A DNA stretch of 64,000 bases, from the NCBI GenBank assembly GCA_016192145.1, contig JACPUT010000016.1:1-64000 (forward strand), written 5' to 3'. A model generated the notes under the pieces. The model saw only the letters and a program-made list of their open reading frames with translations, did no database searches and was not told where the DNA came from. This document shows, piece by piece, positions 4,772-12,212 of the stretch (position 1 is the stretch's first letter; the number at the start of each line of letters is the position of its first letter). Both the position numbers and the translations under genes were made by a program. This DNA is from Acidobacteriota bacterium (GTDB lineage Bacteria > Acidobacteriota > Holophagae > Holophagales > Holophagaceae).

Positions 4772-4783
4772 GGCGGAACCTTG

Positions 4784-4933
4784 GATCGTGCGTCTGGTCC
4801 CACGCCTGGAAGGCGATCGGCTCTAGGCTATTGGCTTTAGCTGATTCCGAAAACACAAGGGGCCGACCGGAATTCCGTTCCCAGCAAGAGCCAAGAGCCA
4901 AGAGCCGAAAGCCTAGAGTCACCCGCACGATCG
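4784..4933. repeat. Tandem-arm inverted repeat A, GGCTYTN heptamer family
   Basis: The outer ends are a perfect 9-bp inverted pair, GATCGTGCG at 4784-4792 and its complement at 4924-4932. Inside, CTCTAGGCT at 4821-4829 pairs with 4910-4918. The left arm is made of heptamers GGCTCTA, GGCTATT, GGCTTTA (4819-4839). The right arm is AAGAGCC three times (4886-4906) then GAAAGCC. The unpaired middle contains GGCCGACC and a CGAAAACAC stretch. It lies between bioB and the convergent GH2 gene and contains no coding sequence that I recognise. Confidence 0.8.
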
Positions 4934-4944
4934 GGGTTGGAGCG

Positions 4945-7419
4945 CTATTCCGGGCCCCGGACGGTGAGCGTCTCGGCCGTGTTCAGGGCGCTGAGGTGGG
5001 CCTTGAAGCGCCGGGGGGATTCGCCCAGGGCCGTGAAGCGCAGGTGCTTCACCTGGCCGGGCACCAGATGGAAATAGTCATCGTCGGGCCTCCAGCCAGG
5101 AGCCTCCACCGCCACGGATTGGAGGAAGGCGCTCCCCGAGAGCTTCAGGATCAGCTCGGTGGAGGTGGTCACCTGGACCTCCGCCCTCCAGCCCACGTTC
5201 TCCACGGGCGCCAGGGCGAGCCCGCTCGGGAAGTGGACATCCTCCGAGATCACGTCGCCCGTGACCGCATCCCGCAACCGGGCCACGGTGGCGTGGTGCT
5301 TGGGCGGCCCGAAGCGGTAGGCGTAGGTGATGTCGGTGAAGGTGCCCAGCAGGGCGTCGGCGGAACGCAGCTCCGTGGAGAAGGGCGCCACCCGCAGGGC
5401 CTCGGAGCCCTTGCCCACGGAAGTCCGGGGGCCCTGCCACAGCTCCAGCTCCACCTGCGCCTCGAGGGGCGCTGGTGAATCGTTCACCACATGAACGCCC
5501 AGGCCATCCAAGCCCTCATCCGAGAGGTGGATGCTCCGGGGTGCCCAGGCCCGGCGGGCATACCAGTAGGCGGCCTTGGGGCGGCCCAGGCTGTCCAGGA
5601 GCCCCCAGCCCGCACCGGGCCAGAGGTCATTCCAGAACCAGACGAGGGCCCCGCCGCAGGTGCTCCCGGCGCGGCGCCACTCGGCGTAGGTGCGCCGGAT
5701 GAGCTCTCCCGTCACCACCCGGGAGCGGGCGTAGTAGCCCTCGGGATCCGCCGCGCGGAGCGCCACGGGATCCACTCCGAAGCCCTCCCGCAGATAGTGG
5801 TCGCGCACGTCCTCGAAGTCCCACCCGGCGCCGGAGTCGCGCGGCACCCGGGCCTTCCAAAGGGGCTGGTGGGGCAGGAGCGGGGCCTCCGGCGAGAGGT
5901 GATCCATCGTCGCGGCATCGGGCACATGGGAGAACCCCAGGCACTCGGGTGTGAACTTCACGGCGGCGGCGCGCGCATCCGCCAGCGGGCGGCGGTAGGC
6001 CCCCACGCCGTAGTAGTGGGTGAGGCCCGTGCCGGTGTGGAAGGGCAGCGCGCCTTCGCAGGGGGTGGACGGGAAGTAGGGAATGCCGGGGTGGAGCCGC
6101 GCGCAGGTGGCGGGTAGTTCCGTGGCGAAGAAGGGGGAGGACCAGTCGGGCCGGGGCAGGCCCAGCATGGCCGCCTGCTGCTCGATCTCGCTGCTCCCGC
6201 AGTAAACCGTGATGCAGGGGTGCTTCTGCAGGCGGGAGAGCTGGGCCACGATCTCCGCTTCCACATCGGCCCGGAAAGGCTCATCGCCAAAGGGGTAGTC
6301 CATGTTGGCGAACATGAAGTCCTGCCACACCATGAGGCCCAGCTCATCGCAGAGGGTGTAGAAGGCCTCGGTTTCGTAGGTCATGGTGCCGCCTACACGG
6401 AGCATGTTCGCGCCCGCGTCCCGCGCCGCCGTGAGGGAGGCCCGCAGCGCCGGGGGATCCGCGGCGAGGGTCACCATGTCCGAGGTGGTCCAGCAGGCGC
6501 CCCGGGCGAAGACGGCCACGCCGTTCACCCGGACCTGCACGAGGCCGCCCGCGCGCTCCACCTGCACGGCCTTGAAGCCCACGCGGCCGCAGGGAAAGGA
6601 GCGGTTCCCCTCCTCGGAGGACAGCTCGATGGCAGCGTCCAGAAGCTGCGGCGCGCCGTGGGTGTGGGGCCACCAGAGGGGGATCTCCGGCAGATCGAAG
6701 GCGCCCTCCAGGTGCAGCGCGTCGCCCTCCCGGGAGGCCCGCAGCGCCAGCTGCTGCTTGCCGACGCGGAGCAGGGCCTCGCTTTTCGCCCACTGGGCGG
6801 GGAGGCGCACCACCGCCTTCAGTTCCACCCGGCCCGTGGTGCCCACGGCCCAGGTGCGCAGATCCAACCAGCGCATCGCCGGGGCGTCCCAGGAGGTCCA
6901 GGTGACGGCCCGCCAGGGGCCCACGGCCTGAATGGGCGGAGTCCAGCCGGGGATGCGGCCCAGCAGCGTGGTGCGGATCCACCGCAGGTTCTGGTTCCGC
7001 ACGAGGGAGGTCTTCCACCGGGGCCGGGGCCGGCGTCCGGCCAGCTCCGCCTCGAGGGACCGGAAGCGGATCACCAGCTCGTGGGGCCCCGCACCCAGGT
7101 CCGGGAGGTCCACTTCGTGGGGGCGGAACATGTTCCGGGATTGCAGGATGAACCGGCCATCCAGCCAGACCTCCGCCAGGGTGGCGAGCCCCTCGAAGTT
7201 CAAGGTGCCGGGCCCCTCGGCGTTGAGCGTGGTGCGGTACCACCAGTCCTGGGAATCGAAGGCTCCCGGCTGATCCACGGAGAGGCCCAGCGTCTGCGCC
7301 ACGGTGCCCGGCACCACCGCGCTGGCCCAGGGGCCTTCATTCATCCAGGGGCCCGGTTCCGCGTGGAGGCCCGGCTCCGTGGGACGCAGCTGCCAGCCGG
7401 TTCCGAAGGGCCCGGTCAT
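4945..7419 (-). CDS. Glycoside hydrolase family 2, beta-mannosidase-like
   Basis: A protein of 824 residues with the GH2 layout: an N-terminal jelly-roll sugar-binding domain (with VWLDGRF and a conserved DWWYRT segment), an immunoglobulin-like middle domain, a TIM barrel and C-terminal beta domains. The acid/base position reads YCGSSEIEQQ where beta-mannosidases usually have GNNE, and the likely nucleophile lies in FTPECLGF. Both glutamates are kept although their neighbours differ, so the substrate may not be a normal mannoside. No signal peptide is seen, so it probably acts in the cytoplasm. The start is set at ATG 7419, which overlaps the upstream stop as ATGA. This coupling ties it to the carrier-protein operon. 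A longer upstream frame exists but is out-of-frame sequence of the neighbour. Confidence 0.85.
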   Translation of the reverse strand: MTGPFGTGWQLRPTEPGLHAEPGPWMNEGPWASAVVPGTVAQTLGLSVDQPGAFDSQDWWYRTTLNAEGPGTLNFEGLATLAEVWLDGRFILQSRNMFRPHEVDLPDLGAGPHELVIRFRSLEAELAGRRPRPRWKTSLVRNQNLRWIRTTLLGRIPGWTPPIQAVGPWRAVTWTSWDAPAMRWLDLRTWAVGTTGRVELKAVVRLPAQWAKSEALLRVGKQQLALRASREGDALHLEGAFDLPEIPLWWPHTHGAPQLLDAAIELSSEEGNRSFPCGRVGFKAVQVERAGGLVQVRVNGVAVFARGACWTTSDMVTLAADPPALRASLTAARDAGANMLRVGGTMTYETEAFYTLCDELGLMVWQDFMFANMDYPFGDEPFRADVEAEIVAQLSRLQKHPCITVYCGSSEIEQQAAMLGLPRPDWSSPFFATELPATCARLHPGIPYFPSTPCEGALPFHTGTGLTHYYGVGAYRRPLADARAAAVKFTPECLGFSHVPDAATMDHLSPEAPLLPHQPLWKARVPRDSGAGWDFEDVRDHYLREGFGVDPVALRAADPEGYYARSRVVTGELIRRTYAEWRRAGSTCGGALVWFWNDLWPGAGWGLLDSLGRPKAAYWYARRAWAPRSIHLSDEGLDGLGVHVVNDSPAPLEAQVELELWQGPRTSVGKGSEALRVAPFSTELRSADALLGTFTDITYAYRFGPPKHHATVARLRDAVTGDVISEDVHFPSGLALAPVENVGWRAEVQVTTSTELILKLSGSAFLQSVAVEAPGWRPDDDYFHLVPGQVKHLRFTALGESPRRFKAHLSALNTAETLTVRGPE

Positions 7420-8393
7420 GCGGGGAACCGGTTCCGGAGGGCCCCCATGCCGCGATCCCAGGCCGCGCCCAGGGCATCGATGACGGCCACATCGAAGGGG
7501 CGCTTCCGTGCCATGGAACGAGCCAGCTGGAACTGATAGGCCTTGGTGGTGGTGCTGATCTCCCGGAAGGCCGCCTCGGCTTCCCCGAGCCCTTCGACGC
7601 CCTGCCGGCCGAGCCACTGCAGGTAGGTGGCGGCCAACTCGTAGCAGGCGCCGAACTGGCGGAAGGTGGCGAAGGAGTAAGCGTGGAAGAGTTCGATGTC
7701 GGCCTTGAGCAGCCACTCCGAATCCGCCTCCAGCCGGGCCTTGAAGGGCCCGAAGGGATTCCGCTCCGGCGCCCGGGCGAGCTGATCCTTCAGCAGCTCC
7801 AGGGAAATGGCCACTTGCTCCTCGGGGGAGGGCTTGCGGAAGTGGCGGAGGAACTTCACGTACTCGATGTAGGGCGGCATCATCCGCGCGTGGACGAGGC
7901 CCTCGGTCTGGAAGATGTCCCTGAAGTCCTGCCCTTCGAGGGCGTGGTAGCCCTGGTTGTGGAAGTAGCCCATCCACTCCCGGGCGGGATCGATGGCGTT
8001 CACGGACACGGTGGATTTCACGTGGGCCAGCTTGTAGGCCGTCCCCGCGGTATCCGGAAGGAAGAAGCTATCCAGCTCCACGAGCACCGGATGCCCCTGG
8101 GCCACCTGTTCCTCGATGTGGGCCACGAGGGGGCGCCAGGGCGCCAGCTCGTGGACCTCGAAGCCGTAGAGGCGCATGAGATCCGCATGCTCGAACTTGA
8201 AGAAGGTCCACTGATCCCCCTCGAAGTCGATGGCCAGGGTGAAGGCCATGGCGGCGAGGGGTTCATGCCCCATCCCGTGGAGCAGCTCCACGATCACGTC
8301 GGTGTAGCAGTTCGTCTCCACCCACGTGCGATCCTCCCCATGGATGAGGTGGCGCTGGTAGGTGGCGGGATCCAGGGGCGCGATGGACTTCAT
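7416..8393 (-). CDS. DUF1839 family protein
   Basis: A 325-residue soluble protein of the DUF1839 family, recognised from LDPATYQRHLIHGEDRTW, the WVETNCYTDV segment, FEGDQWTFFKF and the PVLVELDSFFLPDTAGTAY region. A cysteine-histidine-aspartate arrangement (NCY, HVK, D in AIDP) recalls papain-fold proteins such as BtrH-type acyltransferases. That comparison is an inference. It starts 8 nt after the ligase gene and overlaps the GH2 start by four bases. DUF1839 genes are known to accompany amino acid:[carrier protein] ligases, so a role in handling the aminoacyl group on the carrier protein is plausible. Confidence 0.8.
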   Translation of the reverse strand: MKSIAPLDPATYQRHLIHGEDRTWVETNCYTDVIVELLHGMGHEPLAAMAFTLAIDFEGDQWTFFKFEHADLMRLYGFEVHELAPWRPLVAHIEEQVAQGHPVLVELDSFFLPDTAGTAYKLAHVKSTVSVNAIDPAREWMGYFHNQGYHALEGQDFRDIFQTEGLVHARMMPPYIEYVKFLRHFRKPSPEEQVAISLELLKDQLARAPERNPFGPFKARLEADSEWLLKADIELFHAYSFATFRQFGACYELAATYLQWLGRQGVEGLGEAEAAFREISTTTKAYQFQLARSMARKRPFDVAVIDALGAAWDRGMGALRNRFPA

Positions 8394-8401
8394 GCGGCCC
8401 C

Positions 8402-9328
8402 TCAGGCGCCCAGCTCGAGCACCTTCCGCACGGCGACAGGCCAGGTGGCGGGATCGAGGCCGTGGACCTTGAAGAGGGCCAAGGCGATGCGCTCCAGACC
8501 GAAGCCGATGCAGGCGGTGTGGGCGGGCTGGCCATCCGCGGTGCGGATGTCGAAGGCGTGGCCGAAATAATCGAGGTGGAGGTTGCAGGAGGTGATGGCC
8601 GTGGGCTTCTCCTCGGAGCAGATGGGGATCACCAGCTCGAACTTGAGCACCTGTTCGCGCTGGGTGGCCTTGGCCATGCGGCCGCCGCGCCCGAAAAAGG
8701 GATCGTTGGCCACCACCGACTCCACGGGGAGCCCCACGGAGTGGAGGATCCCCTTTCCCCGCTCCAACCACTCGTCGCGGTGGGCCAGGGCCTGCCCCGC
8801 GGTGCCCAGGCGCACGAATTCCCGCTGACGGAAGATCTGCATGCGCGCGGGGTCATCGGAGGGCTCGTGGCGGAAGACGTAGCCCTGCAGATCCACCAGC
8901 CGGCCGCCCTCGGGCAAGGTCCCCGTGGAGGCCGGATAGAGGGGGTAGCAGGCCGCGGGGATCATCATCACTTCGCTGGGTTCGAGGTCGCGGGTCCAAT
9001 CCTCCCCCCCCTCGAACTTGCGGATCATCTCGGCGTGTTCCGGGTCCTTGCCCATGAAGCTGTGCACGGAGCCCATGAGGTCGGGGAAGTTGTGGATGTG
9101 GTTGATCTCGCAATAGTGCGCCCGGCTGAAGATGGGGGGGAAGCACACCACCTCGGCCTTCATCGGGGCGGCATGCCGCGTGACCAGGGCCTCGAACCGG
9201 GTGATGATCTCCTCGAATCGGCCGCTGCGCCCGTAGACGCCCCGCACCCCGCTGGGGATCAGGAGGCCCGAGTTCACCAGGTCCTCCTGGTAGAGCTTGT
9301 AGGGATCGAGTTCGATGGCTCCGCACAT
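8402..9328 (-). CDS. Amino acid:[carrier protein] ligase (class II aaRS-like)
   Basis: A 308-residue homologue of the catalytic core of seryl-tRNA synthetase without a tRNA-binding arm. Motif 2-like residues are in FRHEP...FRQREFVRLG and motif 3 is CIGFGLERIAL. Cysteines in AACYPLYP and TSCNLHLDYFG with the Glu of QREFVR match the zinc-binding positions of atypical SerRS-like enzymes. Members of this family studied in Bradyrhizobium and Agrobacterium load glycine or alanine on the phosphopantetheine of a small carrier protein rather than on tRNA. Here such a carrier protein is encoded two genes upstream. The start ATG 9328 lies 4 nt after the stop of the upstream gene. The amino acid specificity cannot be read from sequence. 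Confidence 0.88.
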   Translation of the reverse strand: MCGAIELDPYKLYQEDLVNSGLLIPSGVRGVYGRSGRFEEIITRFEALVTRHAAPMKAEVVCFPPIFSRAHYCEINHIHNFPDLMGSVHSFMGKDPEHAEMIRKFEGGEDWTRDLEPSEVMMIPAACYPLYPASTGTLPEGGRLVDLQGYVFRHEPSDDPARMQIFRQREFVRLGTAGQALAHRDEWLERGKGILHSVGLPVESVVANDPFFGRGGRMAKATQREQVLKFELVIPICSEEKPTAITSCNLHLDYFGHAFDIRTADGQPAHTACIGFGLERIALALFKVHGLDPATWPVAVRKVLELGA

Positions 9329-9332
9329 AAAC

Positions 9333-10523
9333 CTAGCTCTCCCGCATCGCGACCTGGATCGTGGAGCTCTGCCCCAGGATCCGGTCGTTGTTGACCATGA
9401 GCTGCGCCCCGTAGGCATCCCGCAGATGCCGGCCCAGCGAGAACTTGGAATCGTTCCGGTACCCGGAGATGCCGCAGATGATCATGGCCTTGCCCACCAC
9501 CTCCACGAGGAACTGGGAGGTGGCGATCTTGAGGTTGTTGGTGCGCAGGGCGAAGCCGTAATTGGAGGTGAAGGCGTCCGGGGCGTCTTCCCTCAGCAGC
9601 TGGTTGTACTCGGCGATGGACTGGTACACCCCCCCGCGCATGGAGAAGAGCACCGTGTCCAGCTCCGCGAGGCGCAGGGCCGAGGGCGGCAGGGTGCCCG
9701 GCGTCTTGCGGGCTTCCGCCCGCACGAAGGCGCGGGCCTTGCTCATGGCATCCATGGCGATGCCCAGCCAGAGGGAGCTCCATACGCCATGGGAGAAGGG
9801 GTGCATGGTCTTGGCGTGGATCTCGGCGTAGGGCACGGGAAGGATCTGTTCGGCGGCACCCGTCGCGGTGAGGGTGAAGCCCGAGCTGCAGGTGCCCCGG
9901 AAGCCCAAGGTGTCCCAGCCCGAGAGGGGCTTGAGGGTGCAGTCCTCCTTGCGCACGAGCACGTGGGACTGGTCGTTCCGGCCCGCGTCCGGGGCCCGGC
10001 GACAGGTGACGAGGATGGCGTCGGCCGCCTCGCCGTAGGAGATCACGGGGGCCTGCTTTTCCAGGGTGAAGGAACCATCGGTGACGTTCACCGCGCAGAG
10101 GCTGGAGCGCACGTCGCCCCCGATGCCCAGCTCCGTGGTGGCGGAGGCCAGCAGGTACTGCTTCTCCACCAGGTCGCGGATGTAGCCCTGGAAAAAGGTG
10201 GAACCCAGGGCGTGGTGGACGATGCAGGCCACCTGGATCTGATGCATGGCGAAGATCATGGCCGTGGAGCCGCAGTGCAGGGCGAGGGCCTCGCAGATCC
10301 TAGAGAGGTCGGAGATGGTGAGGCCCATGCCCCCGAATTCCTCGGGAACATAGCAACTGAGCAGCTTCGCCGATTTCAGGGCGTCGAAGGCCTCCACGGG
10401 GAAGCGGGCGTCGCGGTCCACGGCCTCCGCGTGGGGCGCGATGGATTCGCGACCGATGAGGTGCACCTGCTCCAGGATGGAGGCGAGCTGATCGTGGGTC
10501 TGGGGCAGGGTGGACGCGCTCAT
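9333..10523 (-). CDS. Acyl-CoA dehydrogenase family protein
   Basis: A protein of 396 residues with the acyl-CoA dehydrogenase fold: an N-terminal helical domain (about 10-120), a middle beta domain with SATTELGIGGD and a GWDTLGFRGTCS segment, and a C-terminal four-helix domain. In standard members the catalytic glutamate lies in a YEGT-like motif near the C-terminus. Here the matching segment reads MVNNDRILGQSSTIQ, so no glutamate is present there. It lies between the carrier protein and ligase genes, so its substrate is probably an acyl or aminoacyl group on the carrier. Whether it is an oxidase, a dehydrogenase with a displaced base, or a non-redox enzyme is open. Confidence 0.85.
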   Translation of the reverse strand: MSASTLPQTHDQLASILEQVHLIGRESIAPHAEAVDRDARFPVEAFDALKSAKLLSCYVPEEFGGMGLTISDLSRICEALALHCGSTAMIFAMHQIQVACIVHHALGSTFFQGYIRDLVEKQYLLASATTELGIGGDVRSSLCAVNVTDGSFTLEKQAPVISYGEAADAILVTCRRAPDAGRNDQSHVLVRKEDCTLKPLSGWDTLGFRGTCSSGFTLTATGAAEQILPVPYAEIHAKTMHPFSHGVWSSLWLGIAMDAMSKARAFVRAEARKTPGTLPPSALRLAELDTVLFSMRGGVYQSIAEYNQLLREDAPDAFTSNYGFALRTNNLKIATSQFLVEVVGKAMIICGISGYRNDSKFSLGRHLRDAYGAQLMVNNDRILGQSSTIQVAMRES

Positions 10524-10543
10524 GGTGACTCCGGGGAACCTGC

Positions 10544-10783
10544 TCAGGACTGCAGTTCCGAGATCGCCTCGGAGATGGACTGGATGCTCTCGAAGGTCTT
10601 GCGACTCAGCATCTTGTCGGGAAACTCCACGCTGAAGTGGTCCTCCAGGGCCAGCATCAGGTGCACCGTGGTGAGGGACGTCAGGCCAGCGGTGTAAAGA
10701 TCGCTGGTGGGGCCCAGCTCCTCGGGCTTGGAAGAAAGGCGGGCGTGCTGAATAACGATGTCGCGAATTTGCTCAACGATCAT
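10544..10783 (-). CDS. Acyl carrier protein-like aminoacyl acceptor
   Basis: A 79-residue carrier protein, first gene of the operon. It has the four-helix ACP pattern. The probable phosphopantetheine attachment serine is in AGLTSLTTVHLM, where most ACPs have DSL. The ATG at 10783 is preceded by a good AGGAAA ribosome site about 6 nt away, which is why I prefer it to an in-frame start 12 codons earlier. Followed by the dehydrogenase-like gene after 20 nt. Because an amino acid:[carrier protein] ligase is in the same operon, this is likely its acceptor rather than the fatty-acid ACP. Confidence 0.87.
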   Translation of the reverse strand: MIVEQIRDIVIQHARLSSKPEELGPTSDLYTAGLTSLTTVHLMLALEDHFSVEFPDKMLSRKTFESIQSISEAISELQS

Positions 10784-11024
10784 TGATATTTCCTCGCAGT
10801 TCCGGCGGTGATCCACCATTAGACCCTACCGGAATCCAGTAGGCAACCGATCCCCTGGGCTTGGAGTAACCTCGCCATTCGAGGTCATCCAGACCAATTC
10901 CCCCTGCCCTTCCGACCCCTTCCCCTTCGCCGGGAACCGGCCGGAAGCCTATGGAAATCAACGACCTGACTCCTTCAACCGATTCGAAACCAGCCTTCCT
11001 GGCCCCGGAGGGCGAAGGGGTCCG

Positions 11025-12104
11025 ATGTTCGGTTGGTTGCGCGATTGGCTGAAAAGGAAAGGCCCGGGAGGACCTCCGGGGAAGGTATCCGCACCCGCCG
11101 GGCCTCCGCCCCCCGCCGGTTCCCCTCCCTCGGCAAAACCGAACCCGCTGGAGTTTCCTGGATTCGAAGAAGCCTGGGCCACCCTGCATCAGGCGGGTGG
11201 GGCTCCCCCCCCTGTCCCGAAGTTCGCCGCGGAGGAAGGCGAGCAGGTGGAACGCCTCCGGTATCGGGTGATGGAGGAATTCTCCGCGAACCCACCCGAG
11301 CCCGCCTCTTTTCCTTCGGTGGCCGTGGAGGTCATCGATCTCCTCGAGCATCCGGATCCCGACCTGCATGACCTGCTCGCCTTGGTGGATCGGGACCCCG
11401 CCATCGCCCTCCAGCTCCTGCGGCTGGCCAACAGCACCTACTATGCCCGGGACCGGGAAGCCCAGGATCTGCGGGATGCCGTGATGCGCCTGGGGGTGCG
11501 GGCCTCGGGGGAGATCGCCGTGGCCGTGGCCGGTCACACCCTCTTCGATATGGGACTCCGGGCGGAGTACCAGATCTTCATGCCGCGCCTCATGGACCTC
11601 TACCACGACGCGCTCACCGTGGGCTTCGGAGCCAGCGAGATCGCATTCCGGGAGCAGGCCGGCAAGCCCAACCAGGCCTTCCTCGGGGGGCTTTTCCATG
11701 GCATCGGCCATTCCCTGGCCCTCCGCTCCCTCGCGGGCCTGATGATCCAGGGGCGCATCCCGCCGGTCGAAGACTCCACCATCCTGGATGAGGTGCTCGA
11801 GCGGGTGGGCCTGGAGATCGGCTCGACGGCGCTCCTGCTTTGGGGGCTCCCCACCTACCTCGGCGTGATCTGCGCGCGCTTCCACGATCCGGAAGTTCCC
11901 CCCGGTCCCGCCTTCGGGAATCTCCACACGATCCGCGTGGCCTCGGGCCTCCTTCGCCTGGTGCGGAACCCCCTGGATGGCCGCCATGCGGCCGAGACTC
12001 GCCAGAGCCTCCAGGCGCTGGGCATTTCCCGGGCCCGGGCGGCCCAGCTCTACGCCCTCATGGCCCACCACCGGGAGCGGGCTGTGGGCATGCTCTCCGC
12101 CTAG
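11025..12104 (+). CDS. HDOD domain protein
   Basis: A 359-residue protein with a proline-rich N-terminal stretch (about 12-60) and an HDOD domain (about 100-300). The HDOD part shows VIDLLEHPDPDLHDLLALV, then DPAIALQLLRLANSTYY and RDAVMRLGVRA, and a FLGGLFHGIGHSLALRSL segment. HDOD domains resemble HD phosphohydrolases but usually lack metal-binding catalysis and act in signalling, often with chemotaxis or c-di-GMP proteins. No other output domain is visible. It is read away from the carrier-protein operon. Confidence 0.85.
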   Translation: MFGWLRDWLKRKGPGGPPGKVSAPAGPPPPAGSPPSAKPNPLEFPGFEEAWATLHQAGGAPPPVPKFAAEEGEQVERLRYRVMEEFSANPPEPASFPSVAVEVIDLLEHPDPDLHDLLALVDRDPAIALQLLRLANSTYYARDREAQDLRDAVMRLGVRASGEIAVAVAGHTLFDMGLRAEYQIFMPRLMDLYHDALTVGFGASEIAFREQAGKPNQAFLGGLFHGIGHSLALRSLAGLMIQGRIPPVEDSTILDEVLERVGLEIGSTALLLWGLPTYLGVICARFHDPEVPPGPAFGNLHTIRVASGLLRLVRNPLDGRHAAETRQSLQALGISRARAAQLYALMAHHRERAVGMLSA

Positions 12105-12212
12105 GAGACGGGCGAACCCACGTGTAAACTGGTCCATTGGGCCCGAGGAGCCTCCGCCGCGCGAGGCTGGATCCCGGCGCCCGACCGGTTCCACCGATTC
12201 TGCGAGTGACCC

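Follow-up and report, generated by a model that had tools for sequence, protein, structure and literature searches.

Which reactions would require that an acyl carrier protein, a flavoprotein, an amino acid ligase, a protein of the DUF1839 family and a glycosidase be made together? This question is raised by a five-gene cassette found in a stretch of 64,000 nucleotides (hereafter the window) from an Acidobacteriota bacterium of the Holophagaceae (assembly GCA_016192145.1, contig JACPUT010000016.1, positions 1 to 64,000). The answer favoured here, to which we give about even confidence, is that the cassette serves to couple an amino acid, held on a carrier protein, to an amine, most likely that of an amino sugar.

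All five genes lie on the minus strand. They encode, in this order, an acyl carrier protein (ACP, 79 residues, 10783-10544; PF00550, PP-binding), an acyl-CoA dehydrogenase (ACAD)-like flavoprotein (396 residues, 10523-9333; recognised by Pfam ACAD domains and by alignment to solved ACADs), an amino acid:[carrier protein] ligase resembling seryl-tRNA synthetases (SerRS-like ligase, 308 residues, 9328-8402), a DUF1839 protein (325 residues, 8393-7416; PF08893, 384 bits), predicted from its modelled structure to be a papain-like carrier-protein-dependent aminoacyl transferase, and a glycoside hydrolase of family 2 (GH2, 824 residues, 7419-4945; PF22666). The intergenic gaps from the ACP to the DUF1839 gene measure 20, 4 and 8 nt, and the DUF1839 and GH2 genes share a 4-nt ATGA overlap; genes, order, gaps and overlap are as the initial annotation had described them.

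Conservation of the five-gene unit

The proposal of a single functional unit made up of all five genes was borne out by genome comparison, and this unit is real and widespread. A set of 76 loci, 70 of them found by scanning bacterial and archaeal genomes and six taken from plasmids, was assembled by a search seeded with DUF1839 at an identity of at least 39%, distant members lying outside its reach. The order ACP-ACAD-ligase-DUF1839-GH2 recurs in 54 of the 76; four further loci have a divergent ACP, seven are without the ligase only, and most of the remaining ones are cut by contig ends, with a single rearranged cassette, in Cupriavidus. The order is present in Acidobacteriota, Pseudomonadota, Planctomycetota, Chloroflexota, Actinomycetota, Myxococcota and other phyla, and the 70 genome loci include Geothrix fermentans, G. 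campi and one myxobacterium.

The linkage of these genes is far beyond chance. That of the GH2 gene, which had been singled out beforehand as the point where the proposal could fail, was kept: in the 76-locus set GH2 is absent despite a present downstream flank in two loci only (L057 and L069). An independent check on plasmids, started from each protein and with accession overlaps counted by eye, led to the same picture. DUF1839 occurs in 59 plasmid records, 51 of which carry a GH2 protein of at least 37% identity, and no plasmid has such a GH2 without DUF1839, the next GH2 matches falling to 29%. The ligase (at least 42.9% identity) was found in 57 plasmid records, all but one of them also with DUF1839. 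Each of the 14 genomes compared has a single strong GH2 match, and it lies within the cassette (at least 707 bits versus no more than 370 for the next match).

From probable amino acid loading to proposed amide formation

According to NCBIfam the ligase belongs to PRK07080 (431 bits against a cut-off of 357) and the ACP to PRK07081 (102.6 bits against 72), which are paired families. Among solved structures the ligase is best matched by the crystal structures of Bll0957 (E 1e-75). Cys127 and Cys273 are present in 39 of 39 homologues and Glu170 in 36, with Asp in the other three; by the positions in Bll0957, these residues are the putative zinc ligands of the catalytic core. In the ACP, Ser36 of the motif GLTS, the expected phosphopantetheine site, is kept in 40 of 40 homologues.

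The role of the ligase is best illuminated by the cassettes that do without it. In eight gammaproteobacterial genomes with a ligase-less cassette, no such ligase was found elsewhere in the genome. Seven of these genomes encode orthologous DltA-like enzymes for amino-acid adenylation, free-standing and sharing 54-67% identity with that of locus L066, and the eighth has a 145-residue adenylation fragment at a contig edge (50% identity). Across the 12 genomes compared, all further adenylation matches reach at most 37% identity to the L066 enzyme, and the ligase-bearing genomes among the 12 contain distant matches only. Moreover, the DltA-like gene of L066 overlaps by 4 nt the downstream hydrolase gene at the cassette end, and that of L082 lies directly upstream of the ACP and ACAD genes. 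Judged on sequence, the DltA-like enzyme is a non-orthologous replacement of the ligase step, which indicates that the missing step is amino acid loading and not tRNA charging. Loading of an amino acid onto the carrier protein is thus very probably how the pathway begins, and aminoacylation of the carrier, as initially annotated, is the most likely activity of the ligase itself. The Asp that binds the alpha-amino group is conserved in all seven DltA-like enzymes, and the bulky residues of the adenylation pocket (D-N-F-F-I-A-M-V-D-K, read by hand) suggest a small amino acid, though no code matched with certainty.

The model of the ACAD-like protein (predicted local distance difference test, pLDDT, of 92) superimposes on ACADs, including TcsD and ColB1, with Z scores of about 40 (39.4 for ColB1), and the flavin motifs are kept. 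The catalytic Glu is absent at both usual ACAD positions. Position 377, anchored on the alignments to solved ACADs and equivalent to MCAD-376, is occupied by Val or Ile, while Ser, Ala or Thr is found at position 244, which presumably corresponds to IVD-254. The fold comparison gave Z scores of 37-41 throughout, dehydrogenases and monooxygenases scoring alike. It is considered fairly probable that the flavoprotein oxidises the carrier-bound aminoacyl group, either by dehydrogenation or by oxygenation. ColB1 and CaeB1, which oxidise a cysteinyl group bound to a peptidyl carrier protein (PMC8149447), provide the precedent that a protein of the ACAD type can oxidise a carrier-bound amino acid.

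DUF1839 had been left without a role in the initial annotation, and its fold now makes it the likely key enzyme, the one joining the amino acid to a sugar. Its model (pLDDT 92) aligns with CcbD over 290 of 325 residues (Z 19.1, root-mean-square deviation 3.5, 13% identity) and over the full length with AziU3 (Z 18.2) and CtaG (Z 17.2), whereas unrelated folds score 7.3 at most. The two-domain papain-like fold of the CcbD/LmbD and CtaG type is seen over the full length of DUF1839, and Cys29 and His145 are invariant in 46 sequences, His124 being present in 45 of them. The likeness is one of fold and not of sequence-family membership: the DUF1839 profile retrieved no CcbD or CtaG chain among the solved structures even at E 10, and Pfam returned PF08893 only, with no match to BtrH_N (PF14399), the domain of the BtrH-type ACP:aminoglycoside acyltransferases. 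A 2023 survey placed DUF1839 in the papain-like superfamily, guessed from context a part in cell-wall glycan processing and proposed Cys-Thr/Ser-His as its catalytic residues (PMC10318531); the triad of CcbD is Cys-His-Glu. CcbD works by a ping-pong mechanism, in which its Cys accepts proline from the carrier protein before the amine of a thiooctose sugar receives it (PMC12945683). Since the fold match to CcbD is full-length, DUF1839 probably works in the same way, and carrier-dependent amide formation by this protein is regarded as likely. The CcbD-like fold also backs the early suggestion that the aminoacyl group is linked to a sugar.

The glycosidase, the proposed acceptor and the alternatives

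The initial description of the GH2 protein as beta-mannosidase-like holds for its nearest solved relatives, which are beta-mannosidases (5N6U being matched over the full length), and does not hold for its active-site markers (PMC12243196). In the 41 cassette GH2 proteins the nucleophile Glu492 is invariant and the acid/base Glu411 is present in 38; the residue preceding the latter (Ser410) is Ser in 35 and never Asn, and Gly344, at the position of the mannosidase Trp, is invariant. Assignment to the GH2_13 beta-mannosidases was rejected, the Asn-Glu motif and the C2/C3 Trp of that subfamily being absent and Ser410 and Gly344 standing instead. In the 2025 division of family GH2, a Ser-Glu motif together with Gly replacing His/Trp marks GH2_14 (PMC12243196). 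Both features are found in the cassette GH2 proteins, as compared by these published markers; the same Ser before the acid/base Glu also occurs in the glucosaminidase subfamily. GH2_14 is an orphan, cytoplasmic subfamily, of which a tested pair proved to be slow beta-galactosidases, weakly active on the pNP substrate at reported rates of 1-3 per minute, with no mannosidase activity and no signal peptide, and its pocket has been suggested to suit substituted substrates (PMC12243196). The N-terminus is not hydrophobic in any of the 41. A cytoplasmic GH2 with room for a C2 substituent would be compatible with action on an N-aminoacylated amino sugar, and such a role of the cassette enzyme is tentatively proposed from these sequence features. 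In Ktedonobacter robiniae the GH2 gene (L062:10982-13294) has an in-frame TAG near the C-terminal part, the full-length frame being present in two close relatives.

Taken together, these elements suggest a pathway in which the SerRS-like ligase would use ATP to activate a small amino acid, then load it onto the phosphopantetheine arm of the ACP, where the flavoprotein may oxidise the aminoacyl thioester. Cys29 of DUF1839 would then likely accept the aminoacyl group and hand it on to an amine, in the manner of CcbD/LmbD in lincosamide biosynthesis. Finally, the cytoplasmic GH2, with a pocket wider at the C2 side of the sugar, might trim or transfer a beta-glycoside bearing the aminoacylated amino sugar. 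This sugar, either free or as a surface-polysaccharide precursor, would be the product; an amino sugar as the acceptor is slightly favoured. Several points weigh against this scheme. The characterised ligase, Bll0957, comes from another context that has neither DUF1839 nor GH2. Lacking both usual catalytic Glu residues, the flavoprotein may be a monooxygenase or another flavoenzyme. The identity between CcbD and DUF1839 is only 13%, and CtaG, alike in fold, belongs to closthioamide biosynthesis and does not act on a sugar, so that the fold is no proof of an amino-sugar acceptor. In addition, the double alpha/beta hydrolase of most other cassettes was not found in the genome of the window, and no polysaccharide genes adjoin its copy.

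Other explanations part from this scheme at different steps. If the ligase charged tRNA, as its SerRS ancestry might suggest, the gene order would be fortuitous; this has a negligible probability, because the 308-residue protein is devoid of the N-terminal tRNA-binding part, always adjoins its ACP and is replaced in one clade by the DltA-like adenylation enzyme. DUF1839 could instead be a cysteine peptidase or amidase acting in cell-wall glycan or peptide processing, in line with its papain-like placement and the cell-wall suggestion of the 2023 survey. This is improbable, since the structures that it matches best and over its full length are those of carrier-protein-dependent transferases, not of peptidases, the protein always adjoins an ACP and a loading enzyme, and its N-terminus does not resemble a signal peptide. 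Slightly less probable still is that GH2 is a passenger engaged in unrelated sugar catabolism, the other four genes making a sugar-free aminoacylated amine. Bradyrhizobium-like and Priestia loci do contain an ACP-ACAD-ligase trio with neither DUF1839 nor GH2, and GH2 is missing from L057, L069 and some Rhizobium plasmids; however, the restriction of such GH2 genes to single cassette copies, their constant company of DUF1839 on plasmids and the 4-nt overlap in the window all speak against a passenger.

A closer competitor, in fact a special form of the amino-sugar reading with a different acceptor, is that a polysaccharide is decorated: an amino sugar in an exopolysaccharide or in a lipid-linked repeat unit would receive the aminoacyl group, with editing by GH2 and the double hydrolase. 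Clusters with glycosyltransferase, WcaJ-type initiating transferase, UDP-sugar dehydrogenase, Wzx flippase or acyltransferase-3 genes accompany 29 of the 70 genome loci and 23 of the 41 long loci, although these are raw counts without a background rate of such genes. The double hydrolase, a sixth gene present in 33 of the 41 long loci and usually right after GH2, resembles the exosortase-A-associated hydrolases 1 and 2; no match to it was obtained in the window genome, a weak negative given that the search had no positive control. A plasmid of Tsukamurella tyrosinosolvens (L090:4731-14900) also carries the ligase, the ACP and a phosphopantetheinyl transferase within an exopolysaccharide cluster, without ACAD, DUF1839 or GH2. 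On the other hand, the copies of the window, Azospirillum lipoferum and Rhizobium Vaf10 lie outside such clusters, and no cassette gene product is membrane-bound or exported. Polysaccharide decoration is rather unlikely. The early remark that no export gene is nearby does not extend to many other genomes, where the cassette, unlike that of the window, adjoins polysaccharide assembly genes including flippases.

Other settings and relation to known systems

The ACP-ACAD-ligase part is also found in other settings. Locus L113, which is Bll0957-like, has no DUF1839 or GH2. On plasmid p-LAD4 of Priestia aryabhattai (L091:6118-14677), AcpS-ACP-ACAD-ligase genes are accompanied by those for a DMT exporter, an ATP-grasp enzyme, an alanine permease, an alanine racemase and a D-Ala-D-Ala ligase, apparently a gene cluster that makes an alanine-like antimetabolite and provides self-resistance. 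A Streptomyces sp. NBC_00557 plasmid (L092:1926-10096) encodes a distant SerRS-like protein (32% identity) in a polyketide-type cluster, next to an ACP, an ACAD, a 3-hydroxyacyl-CoA dehydrogenase, a ketosynthase and an acyltransferase, where aminomalonyl-ACP supply with a SerRS-like loader is possible. In L115:6697-9010 a ligase-ACAD pair precedes a homoserine O-succinyltransferase-like enzyme and a Cys/Met-metabolism enzyme dependent on pyridoxal phosphate, perhaps pointing to a sulfur amino acid. In Ktedonobacter and in some Acidimicrobiia an AcpS gene lies close to that of the ACP.

In the window, the cassette and a divergent gene for an HDOD-domain protein (11025-12104, plus strand) sit between bioB and valS, within a lineage-specific insertion (4772..12212, no strand assigned); bioB is directly followed by valS in a genome of the same genus (L133) and in one of another genus (L134). 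No flanking repeats of at least 11 nt were found. PF08893 was detected in one of the 60 relatives searched, the source genome itself, and the cassette is sporadic, occurring in 3 of 274 genomes of one class. This distribution and the bioB/valS insertion point to gain by transfer. The HDOD gene was gained with the cassette, and its closest relatives in the family share just 48-49% identity with it.

More broadly, and somewhat short of even confidence, the data would describe a pathway to aminoacylated amino sugars distributed over many phyla, with a lincosamide-synthetase-like core, a SerRS-like or DltA-like loader for the same carrier, and a natural role for GH2_14. The parts are known singly; their union, the link to CcbD and the link to GH2_14 were not found in the papers searched, nor was any pathway using a SerRS-like carrier-protein ligase, subscription papers lying outside that search. 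Such ligases have been solved structurally; placing them, GH2_14 and DUF1839 in one conserved unit, with a mechanism taken from an antibiotic condensing enzyme, gives each of the three a testable substrate and partner. If true, aminoacylation of amino sugars from a free carrier would be common beyond antibiotic producers, and perhaps a means of modifying surface polysaccharides.

Among known systems, Bll0957 of Bradyrhizobium (amino acid:[carrier protein] ligase 1) belongs to the same family as the cassette ligase, keeps the zinc ligands and has an ACP and an ACAD nearby; it differs in context, a 96% near-identical copy being the one at L113. ColB1 and CaeB1 share with the cassette flavoprotein the ACAD fold and the work on a carrier-bound amino acid, but they act on a non-ribosomal peptide synthetase module, and many other ACADs equal them in Z score. 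BmGH2_14 and SdGH2_14 resemble the cassette glycosidase in the Ser-Glu motif, the Gly in place of Trp/His and the absence of a signal peptide; their subfamily was defined by a sequence network and assayed on stock substrates only, genome context not being discussed in PMC12243196. CtaG and AziU3 have the papain-like fold in common with DUF1839 over its full length, whereas their pathways, for closthioamide and azinomycin, are without GH2. In all likelihood the core of the cassette works as the lincosamide condensing system does, only with another loader. The lincosamide synthetase core also has a separate loader (LmbC/CcbC, an adenylation enzyme), carrier (LmbN/CcbZ) and papain-like condensing enzyme (LmbD/CcbD), and its acceptor is an amino sugar (PMC12945683). 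In the cassette, by contrast, the loader is mostly SerRS-like, a flavoprotein and GH2 are added and there is no thiooctose pathway, and while the lincosamide genes belong to antibiotic clusters of Streptomyces, the cassette is spread over environmental phyla.

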